Assembly: GCA_007280205.1 (NCBI GenBank)
Contig: QYPX01000069.1
Coordinates: forward strand, 1 to 32,261
DNA: 32,261 nucleotides
DNA from: Comamonadaceae bacterium
GTDB lineage: Bacteria; Pseudomonadota; Gammaproteobacteria; Burkholderiales; Burkholderiaceae_C
Direction: 5' to 3'
The notes under the pieces are model-generated. The model searched no databases. It was given only the letters and a program-made list of their open reading frames with translations, and was not told where the DNA came from. Position 1 is the stretch's first letter; every line of letters begins with the position of its first letter. The position numbers were made by a program, and so were the translations under genes. This document shows, piece after piece, positions 5,906 through 27,785 of the stretch.

Positions 5906-5928
5906 TATTGACATGTAGCATGCCATAA
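5906..5928. promoter_or_regulatory. 23-bp dyad operator candidate (TATTGACA-N7-TGCCATAA)
   Basis: This inverted repeat lies between the divergent genes at 5878 (minus) and 5967 (plus). TTGACA at 5908-5913, a possible -35 element, is part of the left half. The same dyad in reverse orientation is at 27763-27785, with 18 of 23 bases identical including both nine-base outer blocks. A third version with the same spacing is at 25361-25383. A TetR-type repressor site is the simplest reading. Confidence 0.55.
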
Positions 5929-5966
5929 TATAGAGTGACTTGCAAGCAACGATCTTCCATCGAATC

Positions 5967-7139
5967 ATGAACCATATTCTTTACGGTATGCCCGGTTCTC
6001 TCTACACCGGCAAGGTTCGCTCCTACTTGCGCAAGCAGCGAATCCCTTTCGAAGAACGGGTCGCCGGCGATCCGCGCTTCGTAAACGAGATCGTCCAGGT
6101 GGTCGGCCGCTGGATCGCTCCGGTGCTTCAAACACCACAGGGGCAGACCTTGCAGGACGGTGCGATGATTATTGACTACCTGGAGACGCTGCCTCAGGCT
6201 GGACCACGTGCGGCGCCGCATGATCCGGTTTTGCGGGTCGTGGCGCACATTTTCGAAATGTTTGGCGGTGAAGGCATGTTGCGTCCAGCCATGCATTTCC
6301 GCTGGAACTTTGATGAGGCCAATATGGCCTTCATCCAGAAAGACTTCCTGAGTGCACTGGCACCCGGCAAACAGGGAGCTGAGGCGGACATGGCTTTTGC
6401 TTTCGCCAGCGGACGCATGCGCAAGGCCACGCTGAACTTTGGCGTCACCCCGCAGACAGCGCCCACCATCGAACGTACCTACCAGGACTTTCTGGAACTC
6501 TTTGACAAACACCTTCAGACCACGCCTTATCTGCTGGGCTCATCGCCCGGTTATGGCGATTACGGCCTGATCGCACCGCTCTTTGCCCATCTGGCGCGTG
6601 ATCCCTATCCTGCGCAGATGATGAAGCGCGTCGCCCCAAGGGTCTCGCGCTGGGTGGAGCGCATGAATGCACCCGACGCGGATGCAGGCGAGTACATGGA
6701 CCATGCGCCCGAATGGATTGACCTTGCCCAGCCCTGCGAGTCGCTCGACGCCCTGCTTCGCTTTGTAGCAGAAGACTATCTTCCTGAAGTGGAAGCGATG
6801 GTGCGGTTCACCAACGATTGGCTGGCTGAGCGGCCCGACCTGGCCGCGGGTACCAACGGCATGCCCAGACCCGGTGACCGGCACATCGGAATGATGAAAT
6901 TCGAATGGCGCGGCATCGCGATGGAGGTGATGGTGATGCCCTACCGCATCCTGATGCTGCAACGGATTCAGGACAGTGCGGCATTGTTGAATGCGCAGCA
7001 GGGCGCCGCTCTGAGGGCGCTTCTGACCCGAACCGGCTTGCAGCAACTGCTTGAACTACGCTGCCATCGCAGGGTCGAGCGCAAGAACCATCTGGAAGTT
7101 TGGGGGCCACCACACAACAATGAGAGGATATCCACATGA
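5967..7139 (+). CDS. GST-like protein with an extra C-terminal domain (390 aa), paralogue of 2732-3886
   Basis: The start at ATG 5967 is chosen because the first residues then align with the 2732 paralogue. A TTG nine codons upstream (5940) is the alternative. Domain order is the same: thioredoxin-like region with YTGKVRSYLRKQRIPFEE, helical GST region with YLLGSSPGYGDYGLIAPLFA, then the shared extension beginning near residue 265 (FVAEDYLPEVEAM) and ending in RRVERKNHLEVWG. It is clearly divergent from its paralogue, so this is an old duplication or independent acquisition rather than a recent copy. Its stop overlaps the next start (ATGA). First gene of a GST/DUF2855/TetR operon behind the 5906-5928 dyad. 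Substrate unknown. Confidence 0.85.
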   Translation: MNHILYGMPGSLYTGKVRSYLRKQRIPFEERVAGDPRFVNEIVQVVGRWIAPVLQTPQGQTLQDGAMIIDYLETLPQAGPRAAPHDPVLRVVAHIFEMFGGEGMLRPAMHFRWNFDEANMAFIQKDFLSALAPGKQGAEADMAFAFASGRMRKATLNFGVTPQTAPTIERTYQDFLELFDKHLQTTPYLLGSSPGYGDYGLIAPLFAHLARDPYPAQMMKRVAPRVSRWVERMNAPDADAGEYMDHAPEWIDLAQPCESLDALLRFVAEDYLPEVEAMVRFTNDWLAERPDLAAGTNGMPRPGDRHIGMMKFEWRGIAMEVMVMPYRILMLQRIQDSAALLNAQQGAALRALLTRTGLQQLLELRCHRRVERKNHLEVWGPPHNNERIST

Positions 7140-8218
7140 GCGCCACACGCCTTCTTGTCAACCGGTCGAACATCGCGGAAACAATGATTGAAGTGCAGGA
7201 GTCTGCGCCGCTGCAGGACGGACAGATTCGACTTCGCATCGAGAAAGTCGCGTTGACTGCCAACAATATCAGCTATGCGGCAACGGGAGAGATGCTGCAG
7301 TACTGGCGCTTCTTCCCGGCTGAGGCACCGTGGGGCTGTGTGCCGGCCTGGGGGTTTGCCTTCGTGACCGAATCTTTGGCCAAGGGTGTTGAAGTTGGAG
7401 AAAAACTGTGGGGCTTTCTGCCGATGGCATCGGAACTCGTGATGGAGCCGGTCAAGGTGACGGGTTTTGGGTTCACCGACGGAGTCGCTCACCGGCGTGC
7501 CTTGCCTCACATTTACAACGAATACACGCGATGCCGTATGGACCCGATGCACACCGAGGGTCAAGAAGATGTGGAAGCTATCCTGCGACCGCTTTTTGCG
7601 ACCGGATGGCTGGTTGACGACTTTCTGGAAGACAACAATTTCTTTGATGCAAAGACAGTCATCCTTTCCAGCGCTTCGAGCAAAACGGCCTACGGCACCG
7701 CCACCCAATTGGCGCGGCGCAAGGACCTGCAGATCGTGGGTCTCACTGCCAGCAAAAACATGGAGTTTGTCAAAGGCCTGGGCTGCTACACCCAGGTTGT
7801 GTCCTATGACGCACTGGACCAACTCGATGCGGGCGCCGCCTGCGTTTACCTTGACTATGCAGGCGACGCCGAACTGCGCCGCAAATTGCACACCCTGCTC
7901 GGCAACATGACCTACAGCAGTTCCATCGGGGCGTCGCACGTCGACAAGATGGGTGGTTCAAGCGGCTTGCCGGGGCCGAAATCCACATTCATGTTTGTGC
8001 CAACGCAAGCCGCCAAGCGCGTCGCGCAATGGGGCATTGCCGGTTTGATGGAGCGCATGACGCGTGACTGGGAAGCTTTTGCCAGTCGCGCGACCGATGC
8101 CAAGCAACCCTGGCTTATGGTGCAGCATCACCCTGGGGAAAAGGCGGTGCAAGCGGCCTACGCACTGGTGCTCGCCGGCAAGGGCGACCCCAGGACGGGG
8201 CATATGCTTTCCTTGTAG
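7136..8218 (+). CDS. DUF2855 family protein (MDR-like fold)
   Basis: The 360-residue protein has the DUF2855 pattern: an N-terminal region with ALTANNISYA (about residues 41-50), LPHIYNEYTR in the middle, and a Rossmann-like second half with VILSSASSKTAYGTA followed by VGLTASKN. The fold is related to medium-chain reductases, but the glycine-rich nucleotide loop is replaced by SSASSKTA, so the cofactor and reaction are unclear. DUF2855 genes often lie in lipid and hydrocarbon catabolism loci. It overlaps the upstream GST-like gene by 4 bp and is followed 5 bp later by a TetR regulator, so the three form one transcript. Confidence 0.85.
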   Translation: MSATRLLVNRSNIAETMIEVQESAPLQDGQIRLRIEKVALTANNISYAATGEMLQYWRFFPAEAPWGCVPAWGFAFVTESLAKGVEVGEKLWGFLPMASELVMEPVKVTGFGFTDGVAHRRALPHIYNEYTRCRMDPMHTEGQEDVEAILRPLFATGWLVDDFLEDNNFFDAKTVILSSASSKTAYGTATQLARRKDLQIVGLTASKNMEFVKGLGCYTQVVSYDALDQLDAGAACVYLDYAGDAELRRKLHTLLGNMTYSSSIGASHVDKMGGSSGLPGPKSTFMFVPTQAAKRVAQWGIAGLMERMTRDWEAFASRATDAKQPWLMVQHHPGEKAVQAAYALVLAGKGDPRTGHMLSL

Positions 8219-8223
8219 GCCGC

Positions 8224-8838
8224 ATGGACATGTCCACTAAAACCAATACCCCTGCAACTGCCGACGAATCCGGCGCCCAGGACGGGCGCCGCAATCGCAC
8301 CGTGGCAACCCGTAAACGCATCGTCAAGGCGCTGACCGAATTAATCAGGGAAGGGCAGGTTGCACCCACTGCCGAAGATGTGTCGGTGCGTGCCAACGTC
8401 GGTCTGCGCACCGTCTTTCGTCACTTCGACGACATGGAGACCTTGTACCGCGAAATCAACAACGAATTGCAGGGCACCGTCCAGTCGATGGTGCACATGG
8501 AATTCGAGTCTGCCGACTGGCAGGAGCGGTTGCTCGAAGGAATCCGAGTGCGCGCACGCCTCTATGAAAGCATCACCCCGTTTTTTCGCAGTGCCCAGGT
8601 TCACCGCCATAAATCGAACGTAATTGACGCCAACATCCGAGACGGCGTCGGGCTCGAACGTGCCATCCTGAAGAAGTTGTTGCCCAAGGAGATTGTTGCG
8701 GACCGACCGCGCTTCGAAGCCCTGATCATGGTCTTGAGCCCGGAGGCCTGGGTCCGGCTGCGCCAGGAACAGGGTCTGAGTTTCAGTGCGGCCATAGCGG
8801 CAATTCAGATGGTTGCAAAAAGACTGCTGCCGGCCTGA
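8224..8838 (+). CDS. TetR/AcrR family transcriptional regulator
   Basis: At 204 residues this is a typical TetR. The N-terminal helix-turn-helix spans about residues 25-75 (AEDVSVRANVGLRTVFRHFDD) and is followed by a ligand-binding helical domain without recognisable specificity. It starts 5 bp after the DUF2855 stop, last in an operon whose promoter region carries the 5906-5928 dyad. Autoregulation through that dyad, and control of the matching sites at 25361 and 27763, is a reasonable inference. It is convergent with the acyl-CoA ligase gene; the 75 bp between them hold no clear terminator. Confidence 0.9.
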   Translation: MDMSTKTNTPATADESGAQDGRRNRTVATRKRIVKALTELIREGQVAPTAEDVSVRANVGLRTVFRHFDDMETLYREINNELQGTVQSMVHMEFESADWQERLLEGIRVRARLYESITPFFRSAQVHRHKSNVIDANIRDGVGLERAILKKLLPKEIVADRPRFEALIMVLSPEAWVRLRQEQGLSFSAAIAAIQMVAKRLLPA

Positions 8839-8913: not shown

Positions 8914-10584
8914 CTAGGCTCGCTCGCGCAGTTCACGCCGCAGGATTTTGCCGACATTGCTCTTGGGCAGGTCATCGAGGAATTCCACGTACCTCGGCAC
9001 TTTGTAGGCTGTCAATTGTTCGCGGCAGTGCTTGATCAGTATTTCCTGCGTCAACGCCGGGTTCTTCTTGACCACGAAAATCTTGACACCTTCGCCGGTG
9101 TTGGGATCTTTCTTTGACACCGCCGCGACCTCAAGCACGTCCGGGTGCATCATGACCACTTCCTCGACCTCGTTCGGATAGACATTGAAACCCGACACCA
9201 GAATCATGTCTTTCAGGCGATCGACAATCTTCAGGAAACCACTTTCATCCATAACCGCCATATCGCCGGTGCGCAAAAAACCATCGGAGGTCATCACGGC
9301 GGCGGTTTCAGCGGGGCGCTTCCAGTAGCCTTTCATGACCTGCGGGCCTTTGACGCACAGTTCGCCGGCTTGGCCGACCGGCAGTTCCAGACCCGCTGCA
9401 TCGCGAATCGAGACTTCGGTTGAAGGCACTGGCAAGCCGATGCCGCCACTGAACTCTTTCAGGTCGTACGGGTTGACGCTCACGGTGGGCGAACACTCGG
9501 TGAGTCCGTAGCCTTCGAGCAGCGGTGTGCCGGTCACCTGCTGCCATTGATCGGCGACGGCCCTTTGCGTGGCTGCCCCACCGCCCACGCCAAAGAGCAG
9601 CTTGCTGAAGTCGACCTTGGCGAAGTCGCGATTGTTCAGCAACCCGATGAAAAGCGTGTTCACCGCCGGCAGGCTGGCGAACTTGTACTGCGCCAGCACC
9701 TTGACGAAGGCGGGGATGTTGCGCGGATCGGCGACCAGCACGTTGGTGCCGCCACTGCCGATCCCGCCGATGCTGTTGCCCAGTGCATAGATGTGATACA
9801 GCGGAATGGCGGTGATGCTGATCATGGCCTCCTGCTTGTCGATGATGGGGTCGAACCAGACCCGGCCCTGCTCCACGTTGGCCAGCACATTGCGGTGCGT
9901 CAGCATGGCACCCTTGGAGACGCCGGTAGTGCCGCCCGTGTACTGCAGGAAGGCCAGATCGTCCGGCTTGAAACTGACCGGCTTGAAGATCGCTTGTGCG
10001 CCACGCGTAAGCGCATCGCGCAGGCCCAGGCTGCCGGGCAGGCTGTAAGCGGGGACCGCCTTCTTGACATGGCGGATCAGGAAGTTGCCGATTACGCGCT
10101 TGCCCCAGGGCATCATGTCAGTCAGACCGGTGACCAGCACATGCTTGACGGGCGTGCTGGCGATCACCTTGGCCAGTGTGTGTGCAAACACCTCGACCAC
10201 GATCATGGCCTCGGCGCCCGAATCCTTGAGCTGGTGTTCGAGTTCGCGCGGGGTGTACATCGGGTTGACGTTGACCACCACGTAGCCGGCTCGCAGCAGG
10301 CCGAACAGGCAGACCGGGTACTGCAACAGGTTGGGCATCATGAGTGCCACGCGCGTGCCCTTGGGCAGCAAGAGCACCGACTGGAAGTACGCCGCCACGT
10401 GGCGGCTCAGCGTGTCAAGCTCGCGGTAGGTCAGCGCCACGCCGGTGGAGCCGCTGATGAAGGCCTTGCGGTCCGCATATTGGGCGACAGATTTCTCGAA
10501 ATAGTCTGAGATGGATCCCAAGGCATCGACGTCAATCTCGGTGGGAACCCCGGGCGAATAACTCTTGAGCCAGATTTTTTCCAT
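8914..10584 (-). CDS. Long-chain fatty acid/carboxylate-CoA ligase (FadD-like)
   Basis: A 556-residue ANL-superfamily enzyme of normal FadD length. The P-loop YTGGTTGVSKGAMLTHRN is at about 215-232, the GYGLTECSP adenylate motif lies mid-protein, RTGDMA follows, and the catalytic Lys546 sits in PKSNVGK near the end. It would form acyl-CoA from a carboxylic acid, ATP and CoA through an acyl-AMP. GGAGG precedes the ATG. It is the last gene of the minus-strand beta-oxidation run and the only acid-activating enzyme in the window, so it probably feeds the acyl-CoA dehydrogenases encoded upstream. Chain or ring specificity cannot be read from sequence. Confidence 0.92.
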   Translation of the reverse strand: MEKIWLKSYSPGVPTEIDVDALGSISDYFEKSVAQYADRKAFISGSTGVALTYRELDTLSRHVAAYFQSVLLLPKGTRVALMMPNLLQYPVCLFGLLRAGYVVVNVNPMYTPRELEHQLKDSGAEAMIVVEVFAHTLAKVIASTPVKHVLVTGLTDMMPWGKRVIGNFLIRHVKKAVPAYSLPGSLGLRDALTRGAQAIFKPVSFKPDDLAFLQYTGGTTGVSKGAMLTHRNVLANVEQGRVWFDPIIDKQEAMISITAIPLYHIYALGNSIGGIGSGGTNVLVADPRNIPAFVKVLAQYKFASLPAVNTLFIGLLNNRDFAKVDFSKLLFGVGGGAATQRAVADQWQQVTGTPLLEGYGLTECSPTVSVNPYDLKEFSGGIGLPVPSTEVSIRDAAGLELPVGQAGELCVKGPQVMKGYWKRPAETAAVMTSDGFLRTGDMAVMDESGFLKIVDRLKDMILVSGFNVYPNEVEEVVMMHPDVLEVAAVSKKDPNTGEGVKIFVVKKNPALTQEILIKHCREQLTAYKVPRYVEFLDDLPKSNVGKILRRELRERA

Positions 10585-10608
10585 GGTGCCTCCGTTTCGT
10601 TATTCCGT

Positions 10609-11418
10609 TCAAGACGTTCCGACCACGCCACCATCACAGGCAATGGTCTGGCCAACCACATATTCACCAGCCCGCGAGCAAAGGAAGATGGCAAGTCCGG
10701 CAATGTCCTGCGCAGTGCCGACGCGGCCACTCGGATTGAGCTTGCCGACACGGTCCCAATCCACCCCTTCGGTCTCGCCACCAAAGCCGACACCTGTGCT
10801 GAGCATCCAGGTCGGAAAAGGTCCGGGTGCGATCGCGTTGAAGAGGATGTGTTCCCTGGTCAGGTGCGCCGCCATGAAACGCGTCAGGTGATGCACCGCG
10901 GCCTTGGAGGCGCCGTAGGAGAACGTGTCAAACACGGCGGCTTTGATGCCATCGATCGATCCGATGTTGATGACGCGAGCCGGGCTGGCGGCGCTGGCTG
11001 CCTGACGCAACAAGGGAAGCAACTTCTGGGTCAGGAAGAACACACCCTTGACGTTGGTGTCCATCACCTTGTCCCACCCGACCTCCGGAAACTTCTCCAG
11101 CGGCGCGCCCCAGGCGGCACCGGCATTGTTAACCAGAATATCGAGCTTAGCCTCTCGCTCTGACAATTGCTTGGCCAGACTTTCAACGCCCGCCAGCTGA
11201 GACAGGTCAGCCGGTAGCGCGACGCATTCGCCACCATAGGCCTCGCTGAGGCGCTTGGCCGTTGCGGCACATACATCGGCCTTGCGCGCCGAGATATAGA
11301 CCTTGGCACCGCCCGCCAAGAAACCGGCGGCGATCATCTCGCCAATGCCGCGCGAGCCACCTGTCACAAGCGCAGTCTTGCCCTTGATCGAAAACAGATC
11401 GTTGAATTGCACACTCAT
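10609..11418 (-). CDS. SDR family oxidoreductase
   Basis: Classical short-chain dehydrogenase of 269 residues: TGGSRGIG at 19-26, NNAG at 97-100, catalytic Ser154, and YGASK with Tyr168 and Lys172. The C-terminal VGQTIACDGG matches the family end. It would oxidise or reduce a hydroxy/keto group with NAD(P). It sits between the thiolase and the ligase in the minus-strand run, so a 3-hydroxyacyl-CoA-type or side-chain hydroxyl dehydrogenase is plausible. The cofactor is uncertain; an Arg after the second strand (ARK, residues 44-46) hints at NADP. Confidence 0.9.
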   Translation of the reverse strand: MSVQFNDLFSIKGKTALVTGGSRGIGEMIAAGFLAGGAKVYISARKADVCAATAKRLSEAYGGECVALPADLSQLAGVESLAKQLSEREAKLDILVNNAGAAWGAPLEKFPEVGWDKVMDTNVKGVFFLTQKLLPLLRQAASAASPARVINIGSIDGIKAAVFDTFSYGASKAAVHHLTRFMAAHLTREHILFNAIAPGPFPTWMLSTGVGFGGETEGVDWDRVGKLNPSGRVGTAQDIAGLAIFLCSRAGEYVVGQTIACDGGVVGTS

Positions 11419-11465
11419 TGATTCACTCCAGTTGGGTCATCGAGCCCGGTTGTTGAAAGTTTCCG

Positions 11466-12641
11466 TTACACCACTTCAAACAAGCCCGCCGCCCCCATAC
11501 CGCCACCGACGCACATGGTGATCACGACATACTTGACGCCACGGCGCTTGCCCTCGATCAGCGCGTGCCCGACCATGCGCGCGCCCGACATGCCATAGGG
11601 GTGACCAATGGCAATGGCGCCACCATTGACGTTCAGACGCTCATCCGGAATGCCCAGCTTGTCACGGCAATAGATGACCTGAACCGCAAAGGCTTCATTG
11701 AGTTCCCACAAGCCGATGTCATCGACCTTGAGACCGGCACGTTCCAGCAGACGCGGAATCGCAAACACTGGCCCAATACCCATCTCATCAGGCTCACAGC
11801 CCGCCGATGCAAAGCCGCGGAAGATGCCCAGGGGCTTCATGCCTCTTTGCTCTGCAAGCTTGGAGTTCATCACAACCACTGCCGAGGCACCATCGGAGAA
11901 CTGGCTGGCGTTGCCAGCGGTGATGACACCGCCCGGCTTGGCTGAGCGGATCTTGGCTACACCTTCGAGCGTGGTGTCAGCGCGTATGCCTTCGTCTTCG
12001 CTGACCGTGACCTGCTTCATGCCAAAGCCCATTTTCGGATCAGCCACACCCATAGTCACCGTGATCGGTGCAATCTCGTCCTTGAAGAGCCCGGCGGCAC
12101 GGCTGGCAGCTGCGCGCTGCTGGCTGCGCACGCCATAAGCGTCCTGCACGTCCTTGCCGATGCTGTAGCGCTTGGCAACAACCTCTGCCGTGTCGAGCAT
12201 GGACATGAAGAAGGCGGGACGGTTCTCGGCCATCCATTCATCCTGGATGTAAGTCATGTTGACATTGGCCTGCACGCAGGAGACTGATTCGACACCGCCA
12301 GCCACCATGACCGGCACCTTGTCGACGATGATGCGTTGCGCAGCAACCGCGATGGCCTGCAGCCCGGAGGCACACTGGCGATCGATCGTGGTACCGCCGG
12401 CTGTCACGGGCAGCCCTGCCCTTAGCGCGGCGTAGCGTCCGATATTGAGACCGGTTGCGCCTTGGGGTAGTGCGCAACCCATGATCACGTCTTCAACCTC
12501 GGCCGGATCGATGCCAGCGCGCTTGACGGCGTGCTCGATGGCATGCCCGGCCAGCGTTGCGCCATGCGTCATGTTGAAACTGCCGCGCCAGGATTTGCCC
12601 AGCGGTGTGCGGGCTGTGGATACGATTACTGCGTCTGTCAT
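11466..12641 (-). CDS. Acetyl-CoA acyltransferase (thiolase)
   Basis: The start is placed at ATG 12641, 19 bp after the FadB-like stop. The longer upstream extension would overlap that gene with no family similarity. The 391-residue protein has acyl-accepting Cys90 in DRQCASG, His347 in GHPYGMSG and Cys377 in CVGGGMG, the complete thiolase triad. It would cleave 3-ketoacyl-CoA with CoA, releasing acetyl- or propionyl-CoA. Coupling with the FadB-like gene immediately upstream gives a functional hydratase/dehydrogenase/thiolase set. Confidence 0.93.
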
Positions 12642-12660
12642 GTCAATTCTCTCGGTTCGA

Positions 12661-14760
12661 TTAGTTGAATGTCTTGCCTTCGACGGCCAGCTTGGCCAGC
12701 AGCGGCGCAGGCCGCCAGACGCTCTGAGCGGACTTGTCGTTGCGCGCGAAGCCTTCGATGGCGCGCTGCACACTCAGCAAGCCCAGGCTGTCGGCATACA
12801 GCATCGGGCCACCGCGGTAGGGCGGGAAGCCATAGCCAAAGATGTAGACGATGTCGATGTCGGAGGCGCGCTGGGCAATGCCTTCTTCCAGGATGCGGGC
12901 TCCCTCGTTGACCAAGGCAAAGATGCAGCGCTGCACAATCTCGGTGCTGCCGATCTTGCGCGCAGTGATGCCATGCTCTTTGCGGTGAGCCTCGACCAAT
13001 GCATCGACTGCCGGGTCAGCCAGCGCAGCGCGGCCACCCTTTTCATAGCGATACCAGCCGGAACCGGTTTTCTGGCCAAAGCGGCCCTGCTCGCAAAGTT
13101 TGTCGGCCAGCCTTGCGGCGCTGGGCCACTGGTACTCTGGATGCTCGGCACTGATGCCTTTGCGTATCGACCAGCCGATGTCGTTGCCAGCCAGATCCCC
13201 CATGCGAAACGGCCCCATGGCCATGCCGAACTTCTCCAGCGCGCCGTCGACTTGCTGCACGGTAGCGCCTTCTTCGAGCATCTTGGTCGCCTCGCCGCCG
13301 TAGCCGGCGATCATGCGGTTACCGATGAAACCATCGCAGACACCCGAGATGACAGCCGCCTTCTTGATCTTCTTGGCCACCTGCATGATGGTCACCAGCA
13401 CATCGTCCGCCGTCTTGGCACCTCGAATGACTTCGAGCAGTTTCATCACATTGGCCGGGCTGAAGAAGTGCGCTCCGACCACGTCCTGCGGCCGCTTCGT
13501 GAAGGCGGCTATTCTGTTCAAGTCCAGCGTTGAGGTGTTGGAGGCCAGGATGGCGCCGCTCTTGCAAACCCGGTCCAGTGTCTCGAAGACGGTCTTCTTG
13601 ACCGCCATCGTCTCGAAGACGGCTTCAATTGCCATGTCGACGTTGGCAAAGTCGTCGTAGCTCAGGGTCGGCTTCAGGAGTGCTGCCAGCGTCTTGGCCT
13701 TGTCAGCTTTCATCTTGGCCTTCTTGACGCGGCTCTCGAAGAAGTCGTTGATGTGCTTGACCCCACGGTCCAGCGCTTCCTGCTTGGTCTCCAGGATCAC
13801 GGTCGGGATACCTGCGAGCAGGAAGTTGATCGCAATACCCGCACCCATGGTGCCGGCGCCGATGATGCCGACGCTCTGGATTGCGCGCGGCTTGACGTCG
13901 GGGGATACGCCCTCGACTTTGGAAGCCTTGCGCTCGGAGAGGAACAGATGCCGCAGGGCGCGTGATTCTTCTCCGACATAGAGATTGGCAAACAAATCTC
14001 TTTCTGCCTTCATGCCCTCATCAAACGGTTTGGTGAGCGCCGCTTCGACCGCATCGACGCACTTGAGCGGTGCCGGGTAGTTCTTGGAAACGGCGCCCAC
14101 TGCATTGCGCACGAACATCATGAAGGCCGCCGGCTTCGGGTGGCTGACCTTCAGGTCGCGCACCCGTTTGAGAGGGCGCTGTTCAGCAACAACCTGTTTG
14201 GCGAAGGCAACTGCGCCTTCCAGCAAGTCGCCTTCGATAAAATGGTCAAACAGCGGCGTGAAGCGCAACAAGTCGGAAGGGACGGTGTTGCCCGAGACAA
14301 TCATGTTGAGCGCCGGCTCCAGGCCGATCAAACGCGGCAGGCGCTGCGTGCCGCCACCGCCGGGCAGCAAGCCGATCTTGACCTCGGGCAGGGCAATCTG
14401 GGCGCCTGGCACTGACACCCGGAAGTTGCAACCCAGGGCCAGTTCCAGACCACCACCCATGCAGGCGCCACCGATTGCCGCGATGACCGGCTTGCTGGAG
14501 GTCTCAATCAGGTTGATCACGCTGTGCAGCGTAGGCTCAGTGCCGGCTGCCGCGGTGCCGAATTCTCGGATGTCGGCACCGCCCGAGAAGGCCTTGTCGG
14601 AGCCGATCAGGACGATGGCGCTGACCGCAGCATCCGCTTCAGCGCGCTTGACCTCAGTGACGATGCCTGCTCGCAAGGCATGGCTCAGGCCATTGACCGG
14701 TGGGTTGTCCAGACGGATGACGGCGATGCCTTCTTTTGCTTCGTAGTGGGTGTTGTTCAT
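12661..14760 (-). CDS. FadB-like bifunctional enoyl-CoA hydratase / 3-hydroxyacyl-CoA dehydrogenase
   Basis: A 699-residue fusion. The N-terminal crotonase domain has GGADIREFG (60-68) and the two catalytic Glu positions, Glu106 in GGGLELALG and Glu126 in LPEVKIG. The C-terminal dehydrogenase has the NAD loop GAGTMGAG at 301-308 and HFFSP with His431. It hydrates trans-2-enoyl-CoA and oxidises the 3-hydroxy product. I start at ATG 14760. The open frame runs 44 codons further, but that extension reads GSRIKSGMT, the usual spurious translation of a genomic palindrome (see 14852-14926). No strong ribosome site is visible. The domain order is that of FadB and of peroxisomal bifunctional enzyme. 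Confidence 0.93.
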
Positions 14761-14926: not shown

Positions 14927-14960
14927 AACTAATAATTGGTGCATTAGCAATTTCTATCTC

Positions 14961-19642: not shown

Positions 19643-19653
19643 AAGAAACCACC

Positions 19654-19968: not shown

Positions 19969-19992
19969 GGTCAACCTGAAACTGGAGAAATC

Positions 19993-20784: not shown

Positions 20785-20965
20785 TTCCAGCGAGGCGCTG
20801 CGACATCCATTCGACTGGATTGCTGCAGAGGAGCCGACTCACTGAAAAGACTCAGCGACGCTGCCCATCGACAGCTATCTGGAATCTCAATTCTCACCCA
20901 CCCAGCGGCCATTCAGGCTGAGGACCTATCGCAGGACGCTATCCATTCTTACGCGATTCACATAA

Positions 20966-20978
20966 TGCCAAATTGGCA
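20966..20978. promoter_or_regulatory. Palindrome TGCCAAATTGGCA upstream of the YghU-like gene
   Basis: Two perfect 6-base arms (TGCCAA, TTGGCA) flank a single A in the otherwise featureless gap 20785-21046. The half-sites resemble those of the 23-bp dyads but point the opposite way and have a one-base spacer. It sits 68 bases upstream of the start at 21047 and may be an operator, but it could be chance. Confidence 0.35.
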
Positions 20979-21046
20979 GAGATACCGTACCATGCGCTTG
21001 TCACCTTGACCCGAGCAAACTTCAATCGCTACAAACTGCCCACTTC

Positions 21047-21907
21047 ATGGACAATTCATCCTCTTACACGCCGCCCAAAATCTGGTCTCCTAACAAGGAA
21101 AACGGTGGTCGCTTCGCCAGCATTAACCGTCCGACTGCAGGAGCAACCCACGACAAGGAACTTCCGGTGGGACGCCATCCCTTACAGCTCTATTCACTGG
21201 GCACACCCAACGGCGTCAAGGTCACGATCATGCTGGAAGAGTTGCTGGCAGCGGGCCACTCCGGAGCGGAATACGACGCCTGGCTGATCCGGATCAACGA
21301 AGGCGATCAGTTCGGTAGCGGCTTCGTCTCAGTCAACCCAAACTCCAAGATCCCGGCGCTGTTGGACCGCAGCGGAGCGACTCCGATCCGGGTGTTTGAG
21401 TCTGGTGCAATTCTCATCCATCTGGCCGAGAAGTTCGGCCCCTTTCTCCCTACTGACGCCGCCAGGCGCGCCGAATGCCTGTCGTGGCTGTTCTGGCAGA
21501 TGGGCAGTGCACCTTTTCTTGGCGGCGGCTTTGGTCATTTCTACGCTTACGCTCCGACCAAGATCGAATACGCGATCGATCGTTACGCCATGGAGGTCAA
21601 GCGTCAGCTAGATGTGCTCGACCAAAGACTAGCGCAAAGTCCCTACCTGGCGGGAGATGAGTACACCATTGCCGACATGGCGGTCTGGCCTTGGTACGGC
21701 ACGCTTGCCATGGGGCAACTTTACGAAGCCGGTGAATTCCTGCAAGTTCAGACCTATACACATGTGTTGCGCTGGACCAAGCAGATTGCCCAACGTCCGG
21801 CCGTCCAGCGCGGTCGCATGGTCAACCGCACATTTGGCGAACCAGCCAAGCAATTGCACGAGCGTCACGATGCCAGCGACTTCGACACCAAGACCAAAGG
21901 CAATTGA
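21047..21907 (+). CDS. yghU: YghU-type glutathione transferase (disulfide-bond reductase)
   Basis: The 286-residue sequence is strongly like E. coli YghU throughout: FASINRPTAGATH, LPVGRHPLQLYSLGTPNG, VNPNSKIPALLD, FLGGGFGHFYAYAP, AGDEYTIADMAVWPW and LHERHDASDF. YghU belongs to the Nu-class GSTs, binds two glutathiones, and reduces disulfides and organic peroxides. The N-terminal extension before the thioredoxin fold is present, so the length is normal. No clear ribosome site is visible before 21047. The next gene starts one base after its stop. Presence in a catabolic run suggests a detoxifying or redox role in the pathway (inference). Confidence 0.93.
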   Translation: MDNSSSYTPPKIWSPNKENGGRFASINRPTAGATHDKELPVGRHPLQLYSLGTPNGVKVTIMLEELLAAGHSGAEYDAWLIRINEGDQFGSGFVSVNPNSKIPALLDRSGATPIRVFESGAILIHLAEKFGPFLPTDAARRAECLSWLFWQMGSAPFLGGGFGHFYAYAPTKIEYAIDRYAMEVKRQLDVLDQRLAQSPYLAGDEYTIADMAVWPWYGTLAMGQLYEAGEFLQVQTYTHVLRWTKQIAQRPAVQRGRMVNRTFGEPAKQLHERHDASDFDTKTKGN

Positions 21908-21908
21908 G

Positions 21909-22793
21909 ATGGCATTGAACGAACTGCAAACGGTCCAATACGCTGTTGAAGGTGGCATTGCCACGGTCACCTTGAACCGACCCGAAAAGATGAACGCGTA
22001 CACGCCACGAATGCGTGATGAGCTCATCGCAGTGTTTGACGAAACGGACGCAGACGACGCCGTCCGTGTTGTCATTGTGACGGGCGCCGGCAAGGCGTTT
22101 TGCGCAGGTGCTGATTTGTCGCGCGGCGGCGAGACCTTTGACTATGCCGCGCAGTCCAACCCGCAGCGCGAGTCCACGCGGGTCGGTGATGTGTACCGGG
22201 ATGGCGGGGGACTGCAGACGCTGAGAACGTTTCGCAGTCTCAAGCCCGTGATCGCTGCGATCAACGGCGCCGCTGTCGGGATCGGCGTGACGATGCTCCT
22301 GCCCATGGATATCCGAATGGCATCGAGCGACGCCCGCTTCGGCTTTGTCTTTGCGCGCAGGGGCATTGTTCCCGAAGCTGCCTCGTCCTGGTTTCTCTCC
22401 CGGTTGGTAGGCATGCAGACGGCCCTCGAATGGTGCTACACCGGTCGTGTGTTTGATGCAACCGAGGCGCTCAGGCACGGATTGGTGCGCTCGGTTCATG
22501 CGCCGGAGGACTTGCTGCCAGCGGCGCGCGCCCTGGCTCGGGAAATTGCAGACAACACGGCACCGGTATCGATTGCGTTAACGCGCCAGATGCTATGGCG
22601 TATGTCAGGTGAAGACAATCCAATGCGAGCCCATCAAATTGACAGCCGGGCCTTGCAAGCCCGAGGCCGGTCAGCCGACGCCAAAGAGGGGGTCAGCGCC
22701 TTTCTGGAAAAGCGCTCCCCGGTCTATCCGGATCGGGTATCAACCGACATGCCGGAATTCTTCCCGTGGTGGGACGAGGTGCCATTCCAGTGA
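21909..22793 (+). CDS. Enoyl-CoA hydratase family protein
   Basis: A 294-residue crotonase with NRPEKMNAYT, FCAGADLSRGG and AVGIGVTMLLPMDIRMAS. Glu156 in RRGIVPEAASSWFL is the second catalytic Glu position; the first is Val (GIGVTM). An internal insert (about 72-100) and a C-terminal tail ending FFPWWDEVPFQ are typical of one subgroup of long EchA-like proteins. It starts one base after the yghU stop, so the two are co-translated. It could hydrate an enoyl-CoA or act as an isomerase; the single Glu leaves this open. The frame is open far upstream inside yghU, but that part has no crotonase similarity. Confidence 0.88.
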   Translation: MALNELQTVQYAVEGGIATVTLNRPEKMNAYTPRMRDELIAVFDETDADDAVRVVIVTGAGKAFCAGADLSRGGETFDYAAQSNPQRESTRVGDVYRDGGGLQTLRTFRSLKPVIAAINGAAVGIGVTMLLPMDIRMASSDARFGFVFARRGIVPEAASSWFLSRLVGMQTALEWCYTGRVFDATEALRHGLVRSVHAPEDLLPAARALAREIADNTAPVSIALTRQMLWRMSGEDNPMRAHQIDSRALQARGRSADAKEGVSAFLEKRSPVYPDRVSTDMPEFFPWWDEVPFQ

Positions 22794-22842
22794 ACCGATG
22801 AAGTCGTAGTTGCCGAACCATGAAATCTGGATACCCAGCAAA

Positions 22843-23118
22843 ATGATGACACTGTTTCACTGTATGCGTGCCCGTTCCTTTCGTCCCCTGTGGACCCTGG
22901 AAGAACTCGGACTGCCGTAGGTTCTGAAGATGCTGCCCTTCCCCCCTCGCATGCATGCGAAGGAGTATCTGAAGATCAACCCCCTCGGTACCATCCCGGT
23001 CTTTTTCGACGGCGAAATGCTCATGACCGAGTCTTCTGCCATCTGTCACTATCTGGCCACTCGCGACGGGCCCTCGCGCTTGTCCATTGCAAACCAGCCT
23101 ATCAAGCTCCGACGCTGA
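22843..23118 (+). pseudogene. Remnant of a GST gene (N-terminal domain only)
   Basis: The reading from ATG 22843 gives a GST thioredoxin-like domain: RSFRPLWTLEELGLP, a TAG at 22918-22920 where Tyr is usual, then EYLKINPLGTIPVF, and MTESSAICHYLAT. It ends at TGA 23118 just after GPSRLSI, so the whole helical C-domain is missing. The in-frame TAG plus truncation means a dead gene. It lies in the 490-bp gap 22794-23283; the remaining 165 bp before the SDR gene show nothing else clear. Confidence 0.85.
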
Positions 23119-23283
23119 CTGACTGCTTCGGCTGCACTAGAGCTGAGCGACCGCAATGGAGAATTCGGTGCAGTGAATGGTCGTTATGCAGAAGGTAGTT
23201 GGAGCGCGGGAACTGTCGGACGGTAGAGTTTCATCCGGTTAAGAACTTGCGTAACATGGTGCTTTCAATCAAGGAGAAAAGCG

Positions 23284-24090
23284 ATGTCAGGACGGCTTGA
23301 GGGCAAGGTTGCGATCATTACCGGCGCGGGCTCGGGCATCGGCCGCGCGGCGGCGTTGCTGTTCGCCAGCGCGGGAGCAACGCTTGTGCTTGGCGACAAG
23401 ACAGAAGCGGTTCATGAGACAGCGCGCCAGGTGATAGCGGCGGGCGGTCATGCGACAGCACTGCAGATCGATGCTGGCGTCGAAAGTGATGTGGCCAACA
23501 TCGTGGCAAGCGCAGTCGCAAGCTATGGCAATGTGGATGTCGCCTTCGCCAACGCGGGAATTTCGGGCGGAATCGAGGGCATCTTCGACTCAACCCCGGA
23601 GCTATGGAGCGAGATCCTGCGCGTCAATCTGATCGGCTGCTGGCTGATGGTCAAACATGCGGGCAAGGCGATGATGGATGCAGGAAACGGCGGCTCCATT
23701 ATTTTGACGGCGTCGGTCGCAGGCATCAGATCCGGCGCCGGAGGACCCGCCTATTCAGCTTCAAAGGCCGGCGTCATCAATCTGGCGATGGTGTCTGCGC
23801 AGCAGCTTTGCGACACGGGTGTCAGGGTCAACGCCATCTGCCCGGGGCTGACCGAAACCGGCATGACCAAGCCCGTCTTCGACTTGGCGAAAGCCAAGCA
23901 AGTGACTCACAAACTGGGACAACTCAACCCGCTGCGCCGCGCGGCGCAGCCGGAAGAACTGGCGCAGGTCGCCCTGTTTCTGGCGTCTGGCGAATCAAGC
24001 TATGTCAACGGGCAGGCGATCGCCGTCGACGGTGGGCTTTCCAGTTCGCATCCGGTGACGCGGCAAGCGACCGGACGGACCGCTTTTTGA
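23284..24090 (+). CDS. SDR family oxidoreductase
   Basis: A 268-residue classical SDR: TGAGSGIG at 13-20, NAG at 90-92, Ser144, and YSASK with Tyr157 and Lys161. An Asp at the end of strand two (LGDKTE) favours NAD. AAGGAG precedes the ATG. It stands between the GST remnant and a convergent reductase gene whose stop is only 7 bp away, so it is probably a single-gene unit. A hydroxyacyl-CoA or alcohol dehydrogenase role is likely from context. Confidence 0.9.
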   Translation: MSGRLEGKVAIITGAGSGIGRAAALLFASAGATLVLGDKTEAVHETARQVIAAGGHATALQIDAGVESDVANIVASAVASYGNVDVAFANAGISGGIEGIFDSTPELWSEILRVNLIGCWLMVKHAGKAMMDAGNGGSIILTASVAGIRSGAGGPAYSASKAGVINLAMVSAQQLCDTGVRVNAICPGLTETGMTKPVFDLAKAKQVTHKLGQLNPLRRAAQPEELAQVALFLASGESSYVNGQAIAVDGGLSSSHPVTRQATGRTAF

Positions 24091-24097: not shown

Positions 24098-25273
24098 TCA
24101 CCGGTTCAGCACTTCGAACCGGATCCCGGCGAGTTGCAGGCGCTCCAGCAGCACGCTTGCCATGGCCTGCACCGGCGTTAGCACACCGCCCAGCCGGGGC
24201 AACTCGTCAAACGCCAGGCACAAGGCGGATTCAGCCAGCATCTTGGCTGTCTCGCCATAACCCGGGTCGCCACCGCTAACCTGGGTCTCGACGTTCTTTC
24301 CGCCACCGGTACCGATAAAGGTCACCTTGAACCAGCCCTTGCTGCGCTGCTCCGGGCTCGGGCCAGCACCTGCTTCCTTGATGCGCAACAACCGGTCGCG
24401 TGTCAACCTGAACTGGGCGCCGGCGAAAACGGCTGCGACACCGCCCAGCAGCACAAGCACGCTGGTGAGCTTCTTGAGCAGCAAGAAATGCCCGTAGCGG
24501 AAGTCGGGGCCATAGCGATCAAGTGCGGCGGCCGAGCGGCGCACGATCTGCGGATCGATGGTCGGCATCGGCACTGCCCAGCCATCGAGTTCCTTTTCAA
24601 AGTGAACCGACTCGCCCGTAGAGCCGATCTTGCGCCCCGCCGGCAAAGGCTGCGCCTGGCGTCTTTGCTTGCCGAGATGCATTGAACTCCTGAAACGAGA
24701 GAACGCGGTCACCGCCGAGTGCAAGGTGCCGCCCGAAAAAGTACCACCTGCTCGTACAAAGCCCTCGACTTTGATCGGCACATTGGCGGGCAACTGCCCC
24801 ACGGTGAACCAGACGCCGAGGTCATGCGGAATGCTGTCGAAGCCACAGCAATGGACGATGCGCGCACCGGTCTTGACCGCCAGCTCGTGATAGCGCAACC
24901 ACATCAGGTCCACAAACTCTGGCTCGCCAGTGAGGTCCACGTAGTCGGTGCCGGCATGGGCGCAAGCCGCCACCAAAGGCTCTCCGTATTGGATGTAGGG
25001 ACCGACGGTCGTGATCACTACTCTGGCGGACTCGGCGATATGCTGGATCGACGCGGGGTCGGTCACATCCGCCAGCAGGAGTTTGATCGCGCCAAAGCCA
25101 GGCGCGACGGCAGCAAGTCGCTCCCGCACCTTTTGCAGCTTGTCGAGACTCCTGCCTGCCAGGGCCCAGCGCAAAGAAGGGCCGCCGTGTCGGGCCAGGT
25201 ACTCAGCAGTCAACGCGCCGGTAAACCCGGTGGCGCCAAACAGCACAATGTCAAATTCCCGCTTTGCTGCCAC
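24098..25273 (-). CDS. Saccharopine-dehydrogenase-fold protein (trans-acting enoyl reductase-like)
   Basis: A 391-residue protein with GATGFTG at 13-19 (NAD(P)-binding), AGRSLDKL, TTVGPYIQYGEPLV and HCCGFDSIPHDLG. These are the hallmarks of the family that includes mycobacterial trans-acting enoyl reductases (Rv2449c/Rv2953-like). A hydrophobic stretch at 269-288 may associate with the membrane. The start is GTG at 25273, with AGGAG seven bases upstream. It is divergent from the ACAD gene at 25423, sharing the region with the 25361-25383 dyad. The substrate is unknown; reduction of an enoyl or keto lipid is the usual suggestion. Confidence 0.85.
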   Translation of the reverse strand: MAAKREFDIVLFGATGFTGALTAEYLARHGGPSLRWALAGRSLDKLQKVRERLAAVAPGFGAIKLLLADVTDPASIQHIAESARVVITTVGPYIQYGEPLVAACAHAGTDYVDLTGEPEFVDLMWLRYHELAVKTGARIVHCCGFDSIPHDLGVWFTVGQLPANVPIKVEGFVRAGGTFSGGTLHSAVTAFSRFRSSMHLGKQRRQAQPLPAGRKIGSTGESVHFEKELDGWAVPMPTIDPQIVRRSAAALDRYGPDFRYGHFLLLKKLTSVLVLLGGVAAVFAGAQFRLTRDRLLRIKEAGAGPSPEQRSKGWFKVTFIGTGGGKNVETQVSGGDPGYGETAKMLAESALCLAFDELPRLGGVLTPVQAMASVLLERLQLAGIRFEVLNR

Positions 25274-25335
25274 AAGTTGCTCCTGAAGGATGACCCGGCG
25301 ATAGTGCTGCCGTGAACTTTGGCGACACCCCCTTG

Positions 25336-25364
25336 TTGATTCCTCGCCGGGTTGAATCTATATT
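25336..25364 (+). promoter_or_regulatory. Sigma-70-type promoter for the ACAD gene
   Basis: TTGATT (25336-25341) and TATATT (25359-25364) are separated by 17 bases, the ideal spacing, and lie about 60 bases before the ATG at 25423. The -10 box overlaps the left half of the dyad at 25361-25383, so a protein bound there would block polymerase. Confidence 0.5.
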
Positions 25365-25383
25365 AGCAGCGCAAGTGCCAATA
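25361..25383. promoter_or_regulatory. 23-bp dyad operator candidate (TATTAGCA-N7-TGCCAATA)
   Basis: The arms are complementary at 7 of 8 positions and the N7 spacer is the same as at 5906-5928 and 27763-27785. It overlaps the predicted -10 of the ACAD promoter, as expected for a repressor site, and lies in the gap shared with the divergent reductase gene. Confidence 0.5.
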
Positions 25384-25422
25384 TATTTCATTTGACTCAT
25401 CTGACCCACTAGAGAACACATC

Positions 25423-26640
25423 ATGGACTTCGACCATTCGGAACGCGCGCAACTGCTGATTCCACAGCTTGAACGCTTCATGGCGGAAGAAATACTTCCC
25501 AACGAGCAGACCTATTACGACCAGTTGGTCCACTCGAACGACTACCGGCAGTGGCGTGTGCCGCCCATCATGGAAGAACTGAAGGCCAAGGCCAGGAACG
25601 CGGGCCTGTGGAACCTGTTCCTGCCTGACGACCAGTACGGCGCCGGCCTGGACAACCGGGATTACGCACCTCTGGCCGAAATCACCGGCCGTTGCCCGAT
25701 CGCGCCCGAGGTGTTCAACTGCGCCGCCCCGGATACCGGGAACATGGAAGTGCTGGTCCGTTACGGCTCACCGGAGCAGAAAGAGCAATGGCTCAAACCC
25801 TTGCTGGCGGGTGAAATCCGTTCCGGTTACTCGATGACCGAACCGGCCGTGGCTTCGTCGGACGCCACCAACATGAAGGCGACCTGCGAGGTCGAAGGCG
25901 ACGAAGTCGTCATCAACGGCCAGAAGTGGTGGACCAGCGGTGCCGGCGATCCGCGTTGCAAGATTCTCATCTTCATGGGCGTTACGGACCCAAGTGCCGA
26001 CCGGCTCAAACGCCATTCCATGGTGCTGGTACCGCTCGATACCCCTGGTGTCAAGATCCTGCGCATGCTGCCGGTCCTCAATTCGCTCGACGAACCGCAC
26101 GGTCATGCGGAGATCCTGTTCGAGAACGTGCGTGTGCCGGTCAGCAATATCATCCATGGCCCGGGACGCGGCTTCGAGATTGCCCAGGGCCGACTGGGTC
26201 CGGGTCGCATCCACCATTGCATGCGCTTGATCGGCGCCTCCGAGCGCGCATTGCAGTTGTTGTGCCAGCGCGGACTCGGTCGTATCGCCTTTGGCAAGCC
26301 CCTGGTTGAGCTGGGCAGCAACCGCGACATCATCGCCAACGCCCGTCTGGCGATCGACCAGGCGCGCTTGCTGACGATGAAAGCGGCCTGGGCACTTGAC
26401 AAGCGCGGCACCTTTGGCGCGCTCAATGACATATCGGCGATCAAGGTGGTCGCACCCAACGTCTTGCAGCACATCGTTGACGCGGCGATCCAGATTCACG
26501 GCGGCGAGGGTGTGTCGGACCCGGAGTTGTCGCGGCTACTGGGAATGGCACGGGCACTGCGCCTTGCCGATGGCCCGGATGAAGTGCATCGCCGGCAGAT
26601 CGCCAAGCTGGAACTGTCCAAATATCTGCGCAAGTCATAA
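25423..26640 (+). CDS. Acyl-CoA dehydrogenase (ACAD10/11-like)
   Basis: A 405-residue [19 protein letters not shown] (136-150) is the FAD-contact motif of the ACAD10/11 group, DGQ-like [12 protein letters not shown] follows, then [33 protein letters not shown] and the typical end [22 protein letters not shown]. Human ACAD11 and relatives handle 4-hydroxy or long-chain acyl-CoAs, so this may serve a hydroxylated intermediate; that is inference. It has its own promoter and dyad, apart from the ACAD pair at 14961-17293. Its stop codon lies within the first unit of the 60-bp tandem repeat. Confidence 0.92.
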
Positions 26641-26755
26641 ACGGTTGGGGACAGAGCACGCTCACTTCGTGTAGCTTTGGTCTGTCCCACAAAGACATAA
26701 TCAGTTGGGGACAGAGCACGCTCACTTCGTGTAGCTTTGGTCTGTCCCACAAAGT
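26636..26755. repeat. Two tandem 60-bp units, each a hairpin
   Basis: Units 26636-26695 and 26696-26755 differ at three positions; the 51-base cores 26644-26694 and 26704-26754 are identical. In each unit GGGACAGA and TCTGTCCC form the outer stem and CACG/CGTG an inner stem. The first unit overlaps the ACAD stop codon and the second ends 18 bases before the NMO start. It looks like a duplicated REP-type element that may act as a terminator or mRNA stabiliser between the two genes. Only two units exist and there are no unique spacers, so it is not CRISPR. Confidence 0.9.
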
Positions 26756-26773
26756 TCAAGAAAGGGAAATATC

Positions 26774-27751
26774 ATGAAAACACGCATCACCGAATTGCTC
26801 GGAATTGAGCACCCCATCATTCAGGGTGGCATGCACTATGTCGGCTATGCCAAGCTGGCAGCGGCAGTATCCAATGCCGGTGGTCTGGGCATCATCACCG
26901 CCCTGACACTGGGCACGCCAGAGTTGCTGGCCAAGGAAATTGCGCTTTGCCGGGAGATGACAAACAAACCCTTCGGCGTCAACCTGACGTTCCTGCCAGC
27001 GTTCTCCGAACCACCTTACCCCGAATACATTCGCGCGATCATCGAAGGCGGCGTGAAGGTCGTCGAGACCGCAGGGCGCAATCCTCAAGCCTACATGCCT
27101 TATCTGAAGCAGGCCGGCATCAAGGTGATTCACAAATGCACATCGGTGCGGCACTCACTGAAGGCGCAGGCAATTGGCTGCGACGCCGTCAGCGTCGATG
27201 GTTTTGAGTGCGGCGGCCATCCAGGCGAAGACGATGTGACCAACTTCATCCTGTTGCCGCGGGCAGCCGACGAATTGAAGATTCCGTTTGTGGCATCTGG
27301 CGGCATGGCCGATGGACGCAGCCTGGTGGCGGCACTGGCACTGGGGGCGGAGGGTATCAACATGGGCACGCGTTTCATCGCGACAAAGGAAGCACCGGTA
27401 CACGACAACGTCAAGAACGCGATCGTCGCCGCCAGCGAGTTGGACACACGTCTGGTGATGCGCAAGCTTCACAATACCGAACGAGTGATGATGAATTCGG
27501 GCGTTGAACGCCTGCTCGAAATTGAAAAGCAAAAGGGCGACGCGCTGACCATTGCCGATGTCTACGATCAAGTCGCCGGCGTCTATCCGAAGATCATGCG
27601 CGATGGCGAGATGGAAGCCGGCGCCTGGAGTTGCGGCATGGTCGCCGGATTGATACACGATATACCGAGTGTCAAGGAACTGATTGACCGGATCATGAGC
27701 CAGGCCGATGCGCTGATCACCCAGCGACTGGCTGGCTTGAGCCGGCCGTAG
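26774..27751 (+). CDS. Nitronate monooxygenase-family flavoprotein
   Basis: A 325-residue FMN TIM barrel: PIIQGGM at 14-20, AVSNAGGLGII, KPFGVNLTF, the His-containing CGGHPGED motif (His149), VASGGMADGRS and ALGAEGINMGTRF (phosphate binding). His149 is the catalytic base position in true nitronate monooxygenases. The family also includes IpdC-type reductases acting on CoA esters in steroid-ring breakdown, which fits this CoA-rich neighbourhood. AAGGG precedes the ATG. Compare the second, His-lacking member at 31020-31970. Confidence 0.88.
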   Translation: MKTRITELLGIEHPIIQGGMHYVGYAKLAAAVSNAGGLGIITALTLGTPELLAKEIALCREMTNKPFGVNLTFLPAFSEPPYPEYIRAIIEGGVKVVETAGRNPQAYMPYLKQAGIKVIHKCTSVRHSLKAQAIGCDAVSVDGFECGGHPGEDDVTNFILLPRAADELKIPFVASGGMADGRSLVAALALGAEGINMGTRFIATKEAPVHDNVKNAIVAASELDTRLVMRKLHNTERVMMNSGVERLLEIEKQKGDALTIADVYDQVAGVYPKIMRDGEMEAGAWSCGMVAGLIHDIPSVKELIDRIMSQADALITQRLAGLSRP

Positions 27752-27762
27752 CAAACTGGTTG

Positions 27763-27785
27763 TTATGGCATATATAATGTCAATA
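27763..27785. promoter_or_regulatory. 23-bp dyad operator candidate, reverse orientation, with TATAAT at its centre
   Basis: Reading the minus strand gives TATTGACA-N7-TGCCATAA, with both nine-base outer blocks identical to the 5906-5928 site. On the plus strand a perfect TATAAT (27773-27778) lies in the middle, about 40 bases before the ATG at 27818. Repression by occlusion of the -10 is the natural reading. No good -35 box is seen. Confidence 0.55.

Follow-up and report, generated by a model that had tools for sequence, protein, structure and literature searches.

A predicted 23-bp operator linking a TetR-type regulator to haloalkane dehalogenase and sulfatase genes in a Comamonadaceae contig

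We analysed a 32,261-nucleotide stretch of DNA from a Comamonadaceae bacterium (GenBank assembly GCA_007280205.1, contig QYPX01000069.1), hereafter the window, which is the entire contig C126 of the host draft genome (4,189,258 bases in 276 contigs, 84% complete). It contains three 23-bp dyads with 8-bp arms and a 7-bp spacer, and a gene at 8224..8838 (+ strand) for a TetR-family regulator of 204 amino acids, the last gene of the operon behind the first dyad. Very likely, the dyads are operators of the repressor encoded at 8224, with its paralogue on contig C271 as a probable second binder, and belong to a regulon for degrading a compound that is both halogenated and sulfated. Computed directly were the sites, how rare they are, their link to the TetR subfamily and the gene content; binding, repression, induction and the substrate class are what we infer from them.

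The dyads and their association with a TetR subfamily

A reading of the sequence alone had reported the dyads in gaps upstream of genes, and all three sequences were found where it placed them. Predicted operator 1 (5906..5928, + strand, TATTGACA-N7-TGCCATAA) lies in the gap 5879-5966; predicted operator 2 (25361..25383, + strand, TATTAGCA-N7-TGCCAATA) lies in the gap 25274-25422 and predicted operator 3 (27763..27785, - strand, TATTGACA-N7-TGCCATAA) in the gap 27752-27817. A recount agrees that operators 1 and 3 have 18 of 23 bases in common. The proposed overlap of two dyads with a -10 element stands for operator 2, which overlaps the -10-like TATATT of the promoter TTGATT-17-TATATT (25336-25364). 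Operator 1 holds a perfect -35 element instead (TTGACA, 5908-5913, with TAGAGT 17 bp downstream), and the promoter scan found none at operator 3, although TATAAT occurs within the site.

The exact pattern TATTRDCA-N7-TGCCAWWA has three matches in the whole genome, just the three window dyads, and its reversed control has none. This pattern was derived from the three sites themselves; other genomes are the fairer tests. Allowing up to two mismatches to a closely similar pattern gives 23 strand-wise matches genome-wide (7 reversed). The wider consensus that came from later learning, TADTGRCA-N7-TGYCAHTA, identifies five genome sites at up to one mismatch, the three in the window and two on contig C271, and all five are thus on the two contigs with the two TetR genes of the 8224 family. 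At up to two mismatches there are 17 genome sites versus 16 for the reversed pattern, so the additional sites are at control level. Within the window, a matrix scan gives operator 2 a score of 17.3 bits, and the next-best score is 8.1.

For a broader test, the best 80 of 388 loci retrieved from named genomes with the 8224-TetR alignment were searched with a matrix built from the three window sites alone (threshold 14 bits; sites within 1.5 kb of the TetR gene counted as near). The set covers Alpha-, Beta- and Gammaproteobacteria, and its record titles include Rhodoferax and other Comamonadaceae, Oxalobacteraceae, Limnobacter and Roseateles, as well as Caulobacter, Phenylobacterium, Sphingomonas, Parvibaculum and Pseudomonas. 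A near dyad was found in 60 of the 80 loci. Controls in which the half-site columns were shuffled with the dyad retained (n=200) had a near site in 0.5 loci on average and in 7 at most, and spacers of other lengths (range 0-14 bp) reached 0-7 loci. Redundancy does not explain the association, given that near sites occur in 28 of 37 TetR clusters at 70% identity (10 of 14 at 60%) and comprise 53 distinct 23-mers. The naming of the 8224 TetR as candidate binder of a candidate regulon is thus strongly supported, its homologues in many genomes having a nearby 8-7-8 dyad.

Searches of the 80 loci with no seed recover the same dyad. Among exact dyads with 5-bp arms the commonest is TGACA-N7-TGTCA (19 loci; the next has 15), and with 6-bp arms and one purine/pyrimidine position allowed TGRCAC-N5-GTGYCA leads, also in 19 loci; exact 4-bp arms returned only GC-rich top words. 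The alphaproteobacterial loci have a near site by matrix in 23 of 27 cases. When 48 alphaproteobacterial sites are made into a matrix, the three dyads take ranks 1-3 in the window (23.9, 23.8 and, for operator 2, 13.9 bits; next 8.4), and none of 100 resampled windows reaches 13.9 with this matrix.

Site placement was determined in a target set of 86 loci, made up of the window, 11 fetched stretches and the 74 of the 80 loci that remained after removal of six duplicates. TetR was recognised in 81 of these; sites were called with a six-site matrix and genes with crude calls of our own. Upstream of an ORF start are 121 of 124 sites (33% of random positions), and the midpoints of 87 are intergenic (9% of random positions).

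The 8224 protein scores 20.5 bits against Pfam TetR_N (cut-off 24), reaches the cut-off of no NCBIfam model, and has its best PDB sequence match at E 2e-6 over residues 18-91 only. Its structure model (pLDDT 88) has ten helices in an all-helical regulator fold. The 50 matches listed by Foldseek are transcription regulators, including EthR, KstR, FasR and TtgR, with a best E of 3e-4 and TM of about 0.4-0.7 among the matches listed; those without a label we take to be TetR family members. Thus, the protein is modelled as a TetR-type regulator with a C-terminal ligand domain. For the N-terminal helix-turn-helix, the model and the profile search of solved sequences agree in direction with the sub-threshold TetR_N score.

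In a comparison set of 60 related genomes, own genome included (numbered G001 onwards), relatives of the 8224 TetR occur in 11, in eight of them as strong matches (E <=1e-39); there was no match in a plasmid collection. The helix-turn-helix residues V59-H67 are identical in all eight aligned family members. The C271 paralogue is 62% identical and has one dyad on each side (TAGTGGCA-N7-TGTCACTA and TAGTGACA-N7-TGCCGATA). Dyads of the same shape were identified beside or a few kb from the TetR relatives of G034, G001, G019 (57% identical), G007 and G035 (46-47%), G038 (43%), which belongs to another family, and G016; they are weak in G007 and G035, and in G016 the dyad is 7 kb from the TetR gene. 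A G037 homologue (26% identical, with an altered recognition helix) adjoins an altered dyad, TATTTGCA-N7-TGCAAATA, a single case.

The individual operators were compared with their counterparts in relatives. Operator 1 is identical at 23 of 23 bases in G034, where an intact 8224 orthologue accompanies it. Operator 2 has one changed spacer base in G034 and none in G001, although the neighbouring bases are conserved as well, and operator 3 in G001 is altered yet near the consensus. Elsewhere in G034, a 36-residue TetR match (L042:859-966) stands alone between two good operators; one repressor may have been lost there while its sites persist.

Genes predicted to be under operator control

We predict that the 8224 repressor, as a dimer, binds a site close to TADTGRCA-N7-TGYCAHTA that covers or adjoins the -35/-10 region, and so would block transcription of its own operon. 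The acyl-CoA dehydrogenase and FabK-like genes and the 70-aa gene with those downstream of it would also be repressed, as would, via an operator off the contig, the dehalogenase-GST-sulfatase operon. An inducer, presumably the substrate or an intermediate, would release the repressor. Promoter occlusion and release by a pathway compound would be the ordinary reading of such an arrangement.

Operator 1 heads the operon 5967-8838, in which a two-domain GST-like gene (5967..7139, + strand, with a possible start at 5940; GST_N_3 and GST_C_2 when scanned as 5940-7139) is followed by a DUF2855 gene (7136..8218, + strand; PF11017, E 3e-101) and the TetR gene. Divergent from operator 1, and 28 bases away, is an ORF for a small predicted membrane protein (5417..5878, - strand), judged to be membrane-located by eye; it has no Pfam match and is 93% identical in G034. 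Behind operator 2 is an acyl-CoA dehydrogenase gene identified by Pfam (25423..26640, + strand). A FabK/nitronate-monooxygenase-like gene (26774..27751, + strand; PF03060, with the FabK model below cut-off) stops just short of operator 3 and probably belongs to the 25423 operon. G001 lacks this FabK-like ORF but retains its 3' end together with operator 3. Membership is uncertain for the gene divergent from operator 2, which encodes a saccharopine-dehydrogenase-like NADP-binding protein (24098..25273, - strand; PF03435): the stretch fetched from G034 retains operator 2 but did not show this gene. Operator 3 precedes genes for a 70-aa protein (27818..28030, + strand; 96% identical in G034, 97% in G001) and a 214-aa protein (28086..28730, + strand; 92% identical in G034), both lacking Pfam matches. 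The regulon holds up as the linkage of gene sets first proposed from the dyads, except for the pairing of these last two genes, which was not found in two relatives: they are on separate contigs in G034, and only the 70-aa gene was seen in the three G001 stretches searched.

The regulon looks larger than first described, reaching contig C271 and genes for dehalogenases and sulfatases. The first operon of the window (173-5374) starts with an MDR-type alcohol dehydrogenase (173..1186, + strand; PF16884 and PF00107), present as two ORFs (173-553 and 569-1186) that are a single ORF in G034 and G001. It is followed by a C10 family protein (1183..1827, + strand) without Pfam match, described from its alignment, a model (pLDDT 79) and fold matches; in the model, hydrophobic helices at either terminus flank a dimeric alpha/beta-barrel core, and the family has 18 members in one cluster. 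Next are the haloalkane dehalogenase (1833..2750, + strand), a second GST-like protein (2690..3886, + strand; GST_C) and a sulfatase (3971..5374, + strand) in two ORFs. The first of these (3971-4846) matches PF00884 at E 6e-35; the second (4955-5374) has a weak Sulfatase_C match below cut-off and was assigned mainly through position. The G034 counterpart is one sulfatase ORF of 554 aa. Both split genes may reflect a frameshift or an assembly error.

Enzymes of haloalkane dehalogenase subfamily I have a nucleophilic Asp followed by a halide-binding Trp, a second halide-binding Trp, an acid Asp and a base His. In the alignment of the 1833..2750 protein, D123 and W124 are present in 38 of 38 sequences, W58 and D248 in all 37 that have any residue at the position, and H278 in 36 of 37. 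The protein thus fits subfamily I by its residues, its activity being predicted, and its closest solved relative is the haloalkane dehalogenase 5esr (E 6e-92), presumably DccA of Caulobacter crescentus. Among the 60 related genomes, 15 close dehalogenases (E <=1e-70) were identified in 11, including seven of the eight genomes with a strong TetR match versus four of the 52 others (p 6e-6, with cut-offs set after seeing the tables).

No site for this operon was found within the window. In relatives, operators occur upstream of it at L042:4219 in G034 (just upstream) and at L051:593 in G001. The G001 stretch has TetR and a site before an outer-membrane channel gene (Phenol_MetA_deg), which precedes the dehalogenase operon. 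C271 at its end and the window at its start are both collinear with this part of G001, which makes it probable that the two contigs adjoin, with a repeated gene in between. From this arrangement, the dehalogenase operon is a probable regulon member through an off-contig operator. The 3' end of the channel gene is present at both ends of the window (1-169 and 32093-32261) as an inverted 169-bp repeat with 99% identity, which probably caused the contig breaks. Adjoining the G034 operator at L042:4219 is a 99-aa ORF (L042:3828-4127) with two short dehalogenase matches, possibly a dehalogenase remnant.

A further sulfatase (29309..31189, - strand; PF00884, solved sulfatases at E 1e-81) is a possible regulon member. 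Type I sulfatases carry the motif C/S-x-P-S/A-R, and CAPSR is found at the formylglycine motif in the alignment with the carrageenan sulfatase 6prm. No site reached 14 bits upstream of this gene in the window; in G001 a site (L044:4211) lies upstream of the NMO gene next to it.

Across the 86 loci, where one site can have two targets, the 124 sites most often precede sulfatases (36), TetR genes (31), GSTs (22), haloalkane dehalogenases (19) and the Phenol_MetA_deg outer-membrane channel (16). Lesser targets are a metallo-beta-lactamase-fold hydrolase, a formylglycine-generating enzyme and the C10 family (9 each), and the remainder are DsbA/HCCA-isomerase-like genes (5), DUF1254 (1) and others (35). 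Counted by presence per stretch, a sulfatase occurs in 62 of the 86, a GST in 41, the metallo-beta-lactamase fold in 38, a dehalogenase in 37 and the formylglycine-generating enzyme in 35.

Membership was rejected for the large beta-oxidation operon (8914-17293) and for the genes at 17458-24090, as no site was found for them and the next window score after 17.3 bits is 8.1. In five stretches (L221, L222, L223, L225 and L226), a dehalogenase gene adjoins a metallo-beta-lactamase-fold gene of cluster C2, whose member in L140 matches the arylsulfatase 8gyg. Two of the five come from genomes without a match to the 8224 TetR (G018 and G012), and the sole site among the five, in L222, is weak.

Alternative explanations and the probable substrate

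Several results weigh against assigning the dyads to the 8224 repressor and a degradative regulon. Operator 2 has one poor half-site and is the weakest of the three, and operator 3 is degraded in G034. No site was found within 1.5 kb of TetR in 20 of the 80 loci (11 have a more distant one, 9 none in the stretch), and unseeded searches of the 27 alphaproteobacterial loci alone did not recover the dyad. The alphaproteobacterial training sites had first been located with a matrix including the window sites, so their independence is incomplete. That matrix also scores 15.1 and 15.5 at two places in 25 other stretches (96 kb), versus 13.9 for operator 2, and a further 200 resampled windows, with a mean maximum of 7.2, included one chance score of 20.5. 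Sites with up to one mismatch number 24 in the eight strong-TetR genomes and 38 in the 52 others (26 for the reversed control in all 60), seven of them in G039, a genome without a match to the 8224 TetR. With regard to the regulon, the operator of the dehalogenase operon is off the contig and deduced from relatives, and the formylglycine-generating enzyme of other loci was not seen in the window. The C271 paralogue, too, could be the main binder.

At up to one mismatch, 18 of 200 genomes of the host family match the broad pattern, and reversed-control matches outnumber these; the pattern alone is thus insufficient outside TetR-bearing genomes. Exact sites in G023 and G041 were rejected, as neither genome has an 8224-TetR match, and the G023 site is inside an ORF.

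That binding is mainly by the C271 paralogue instead of the 8224 protein, or by both with cross-talk, seems to us possible but rather unlikely. The paralogue has its two flanking sites, one a full match to the consensus, and the identity of V59-H67 across the family means that both proteins should read the same site. G034 argues for the 8224 protein, since there the operator 1 orthologue persists with an intact 8224 orthologue and the other pair of sites encloses only the 36-residue TetR match. We consider it very improbable that the 8224 TetR is just a neighbour and the dyads are bound by a different regulator, be it the double TetR at 17458 or the product of another locus. The loci were picked via the 8224 family, whose presence there is by construction, and TATTGNCA-like half-sites occur upstream of 17458; yet the dyad stays close to an 8224-family gene in three proteobacterial classes despite varying surrounding genes. 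The sequence-only reading had listed those half-sites (direct repeats at 17343-17365) as related and the 17458 TetR as a second candidate. Neither suggestion held: the sequence is present, yet scores -0.3 bits as a dyad and has both units altered in G001 where the flanks are conserved, so it was rejected as an operator, and nothing was found that ties the double TetR to the dyads. Sites 1 and 3 contain the core promoter words TTGACA and TATAAT, as would be expected if the dyads were chance AT-rich dyads or core promoter elements lacking a dedicated binder. The fixed 7-bp spacer, the permuted-dyad control and the rarity of the sites in the genome speak against this, and we find it hardly credible.

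As to function, the same regulator/operator pair stands at sets of dehalogenase, sulfatase, formylglycine-generating-enzyme and GST genes in many Proteobacteria. The pathway thus most likely takes apart a halogenated, sulfated natural compound, as judged from gene content. A general, GST-led detoxification of electrophiles would fit the GST-like genes in 41 of the 86 loci and the 49 stretches without a dehalogenase. This we regard as a tentative option, less probable than not, given the frequency of sulfatases and of the formylglycine-generating enzyme, and 54 loci that combine a sulfatase-type gene (sulfatase, metallo-beta-lactamase fold or formylglycine-generating enzyme) with a dehalogenase or GST gene.

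A more specific possibility, which we hold to be doubtful, is that the TetR/operator pair marks a widespread undescribed regulon for chlorosulfolipid catabolism. Chlorosulfolipids are chlorinated long-chain alkyl sulfates. Sulfatases would strip the sulfate, haloalkane dehalogenases and GSTs the chlorine, and acyl-CoA enzymes would finish the chain. The idea comes from the gene content and the origin of these lipids in a freshwater alga; they were first described from the golden alga Ochromonas danica (PMC13413282). Record titles hint at freshwater for some of the loci (Lake Baikal, ponds) and at marine water for others. No account of bacterial chlorosulfolipid degradation was found in open-licence literature. 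If true, this reading would give subfamily-I haloalkane dehalogenases a natural job. Haloalkane dehalogenases are widespread in organisms not on record as degraders of synthetic organohalogens, and a review interprets this spread as pointing to a role with naturally occurring halogenated compounds (PMC6299022).

For the broader prediction of a halogenated, sulfated substrate, a repressor and 23-bp operator that join dehalogenases, sulfatases, the formylglycine-generating enzyme and GSTs offer a route to the compound, the signal being whatever brings about the repressor's release. With the operator, regulon members, including those of nameless families, can also be listed in many genomes.

Relation to known systems and the double TetR at 17458

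TetR proteins that regulate their own genes through a palindromic operator are a known type of system, and the predicted mechanism is ordinary. Like local TetR autorepressors, the 8224 system combines a regulator fold (by model), a gene within or beside the regulated operon and a palindrome over the promoter. It differs from typical ones in the sub-threshold TetR_N score, the partial PDB match and the lack of any NCBIfam assignment.

The regulator of the Rhodococcus haloalkane dehalogenase operon is presumably the TetR-like protein named DhaR. That operon includes the dehalogenase, alcohol and aldehyde dehydrogenases and a regulatory gene, perhaps for a repressor (PMC3414701), and thus also has a probable repressor near a haloalkane dehalogenase and an alcohol dehydrogenase. 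Unlike the 8224 regulon, it is described without mention of sulfatases in the excerpted account, and the two regulators are likened by gene context only. In Psychrobacter, the SlfR/slfCHSL alkyl-sulfate module is repressed and inducible, with a pathway aldehyde as inducer (PMC10779009). The likeness is in an inducible, repressor-controlled breakdown that runs from a sulfatase step to a fatty-acyl-CoA; SlfR differs in being an AraC/XylS regulator, and the module as described has a single alkyl sulfatase and lists no dehalogenase. Open-licence papers yielded none that joins haloalkane dehalogenase and sulfatase sets in one regulon, and none on DUF2855.

The gene at 17458-18708 (+ strand) is divergent from an acyl-CoA dehydrogenase operon and encodes a 416-aa protein with two TetR units per chain (TetR_N, two matched stretches). 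In this it is like Mce3R of Mycobacterium tuberculosis, for which two TetR units in one chain are described (PMC11667970), and the resemblance is architectural only. Among solved sequences, the 17458 protein reached 2hyt alone at a limit of 1e-8, and not Mce3R. In the upstream gap (17294-17457), the blocks TTCTAAAATAATTCTA and ATATAGGGTAAACGATAATATACC are conserved with G001 and could hold this protein's own operator.

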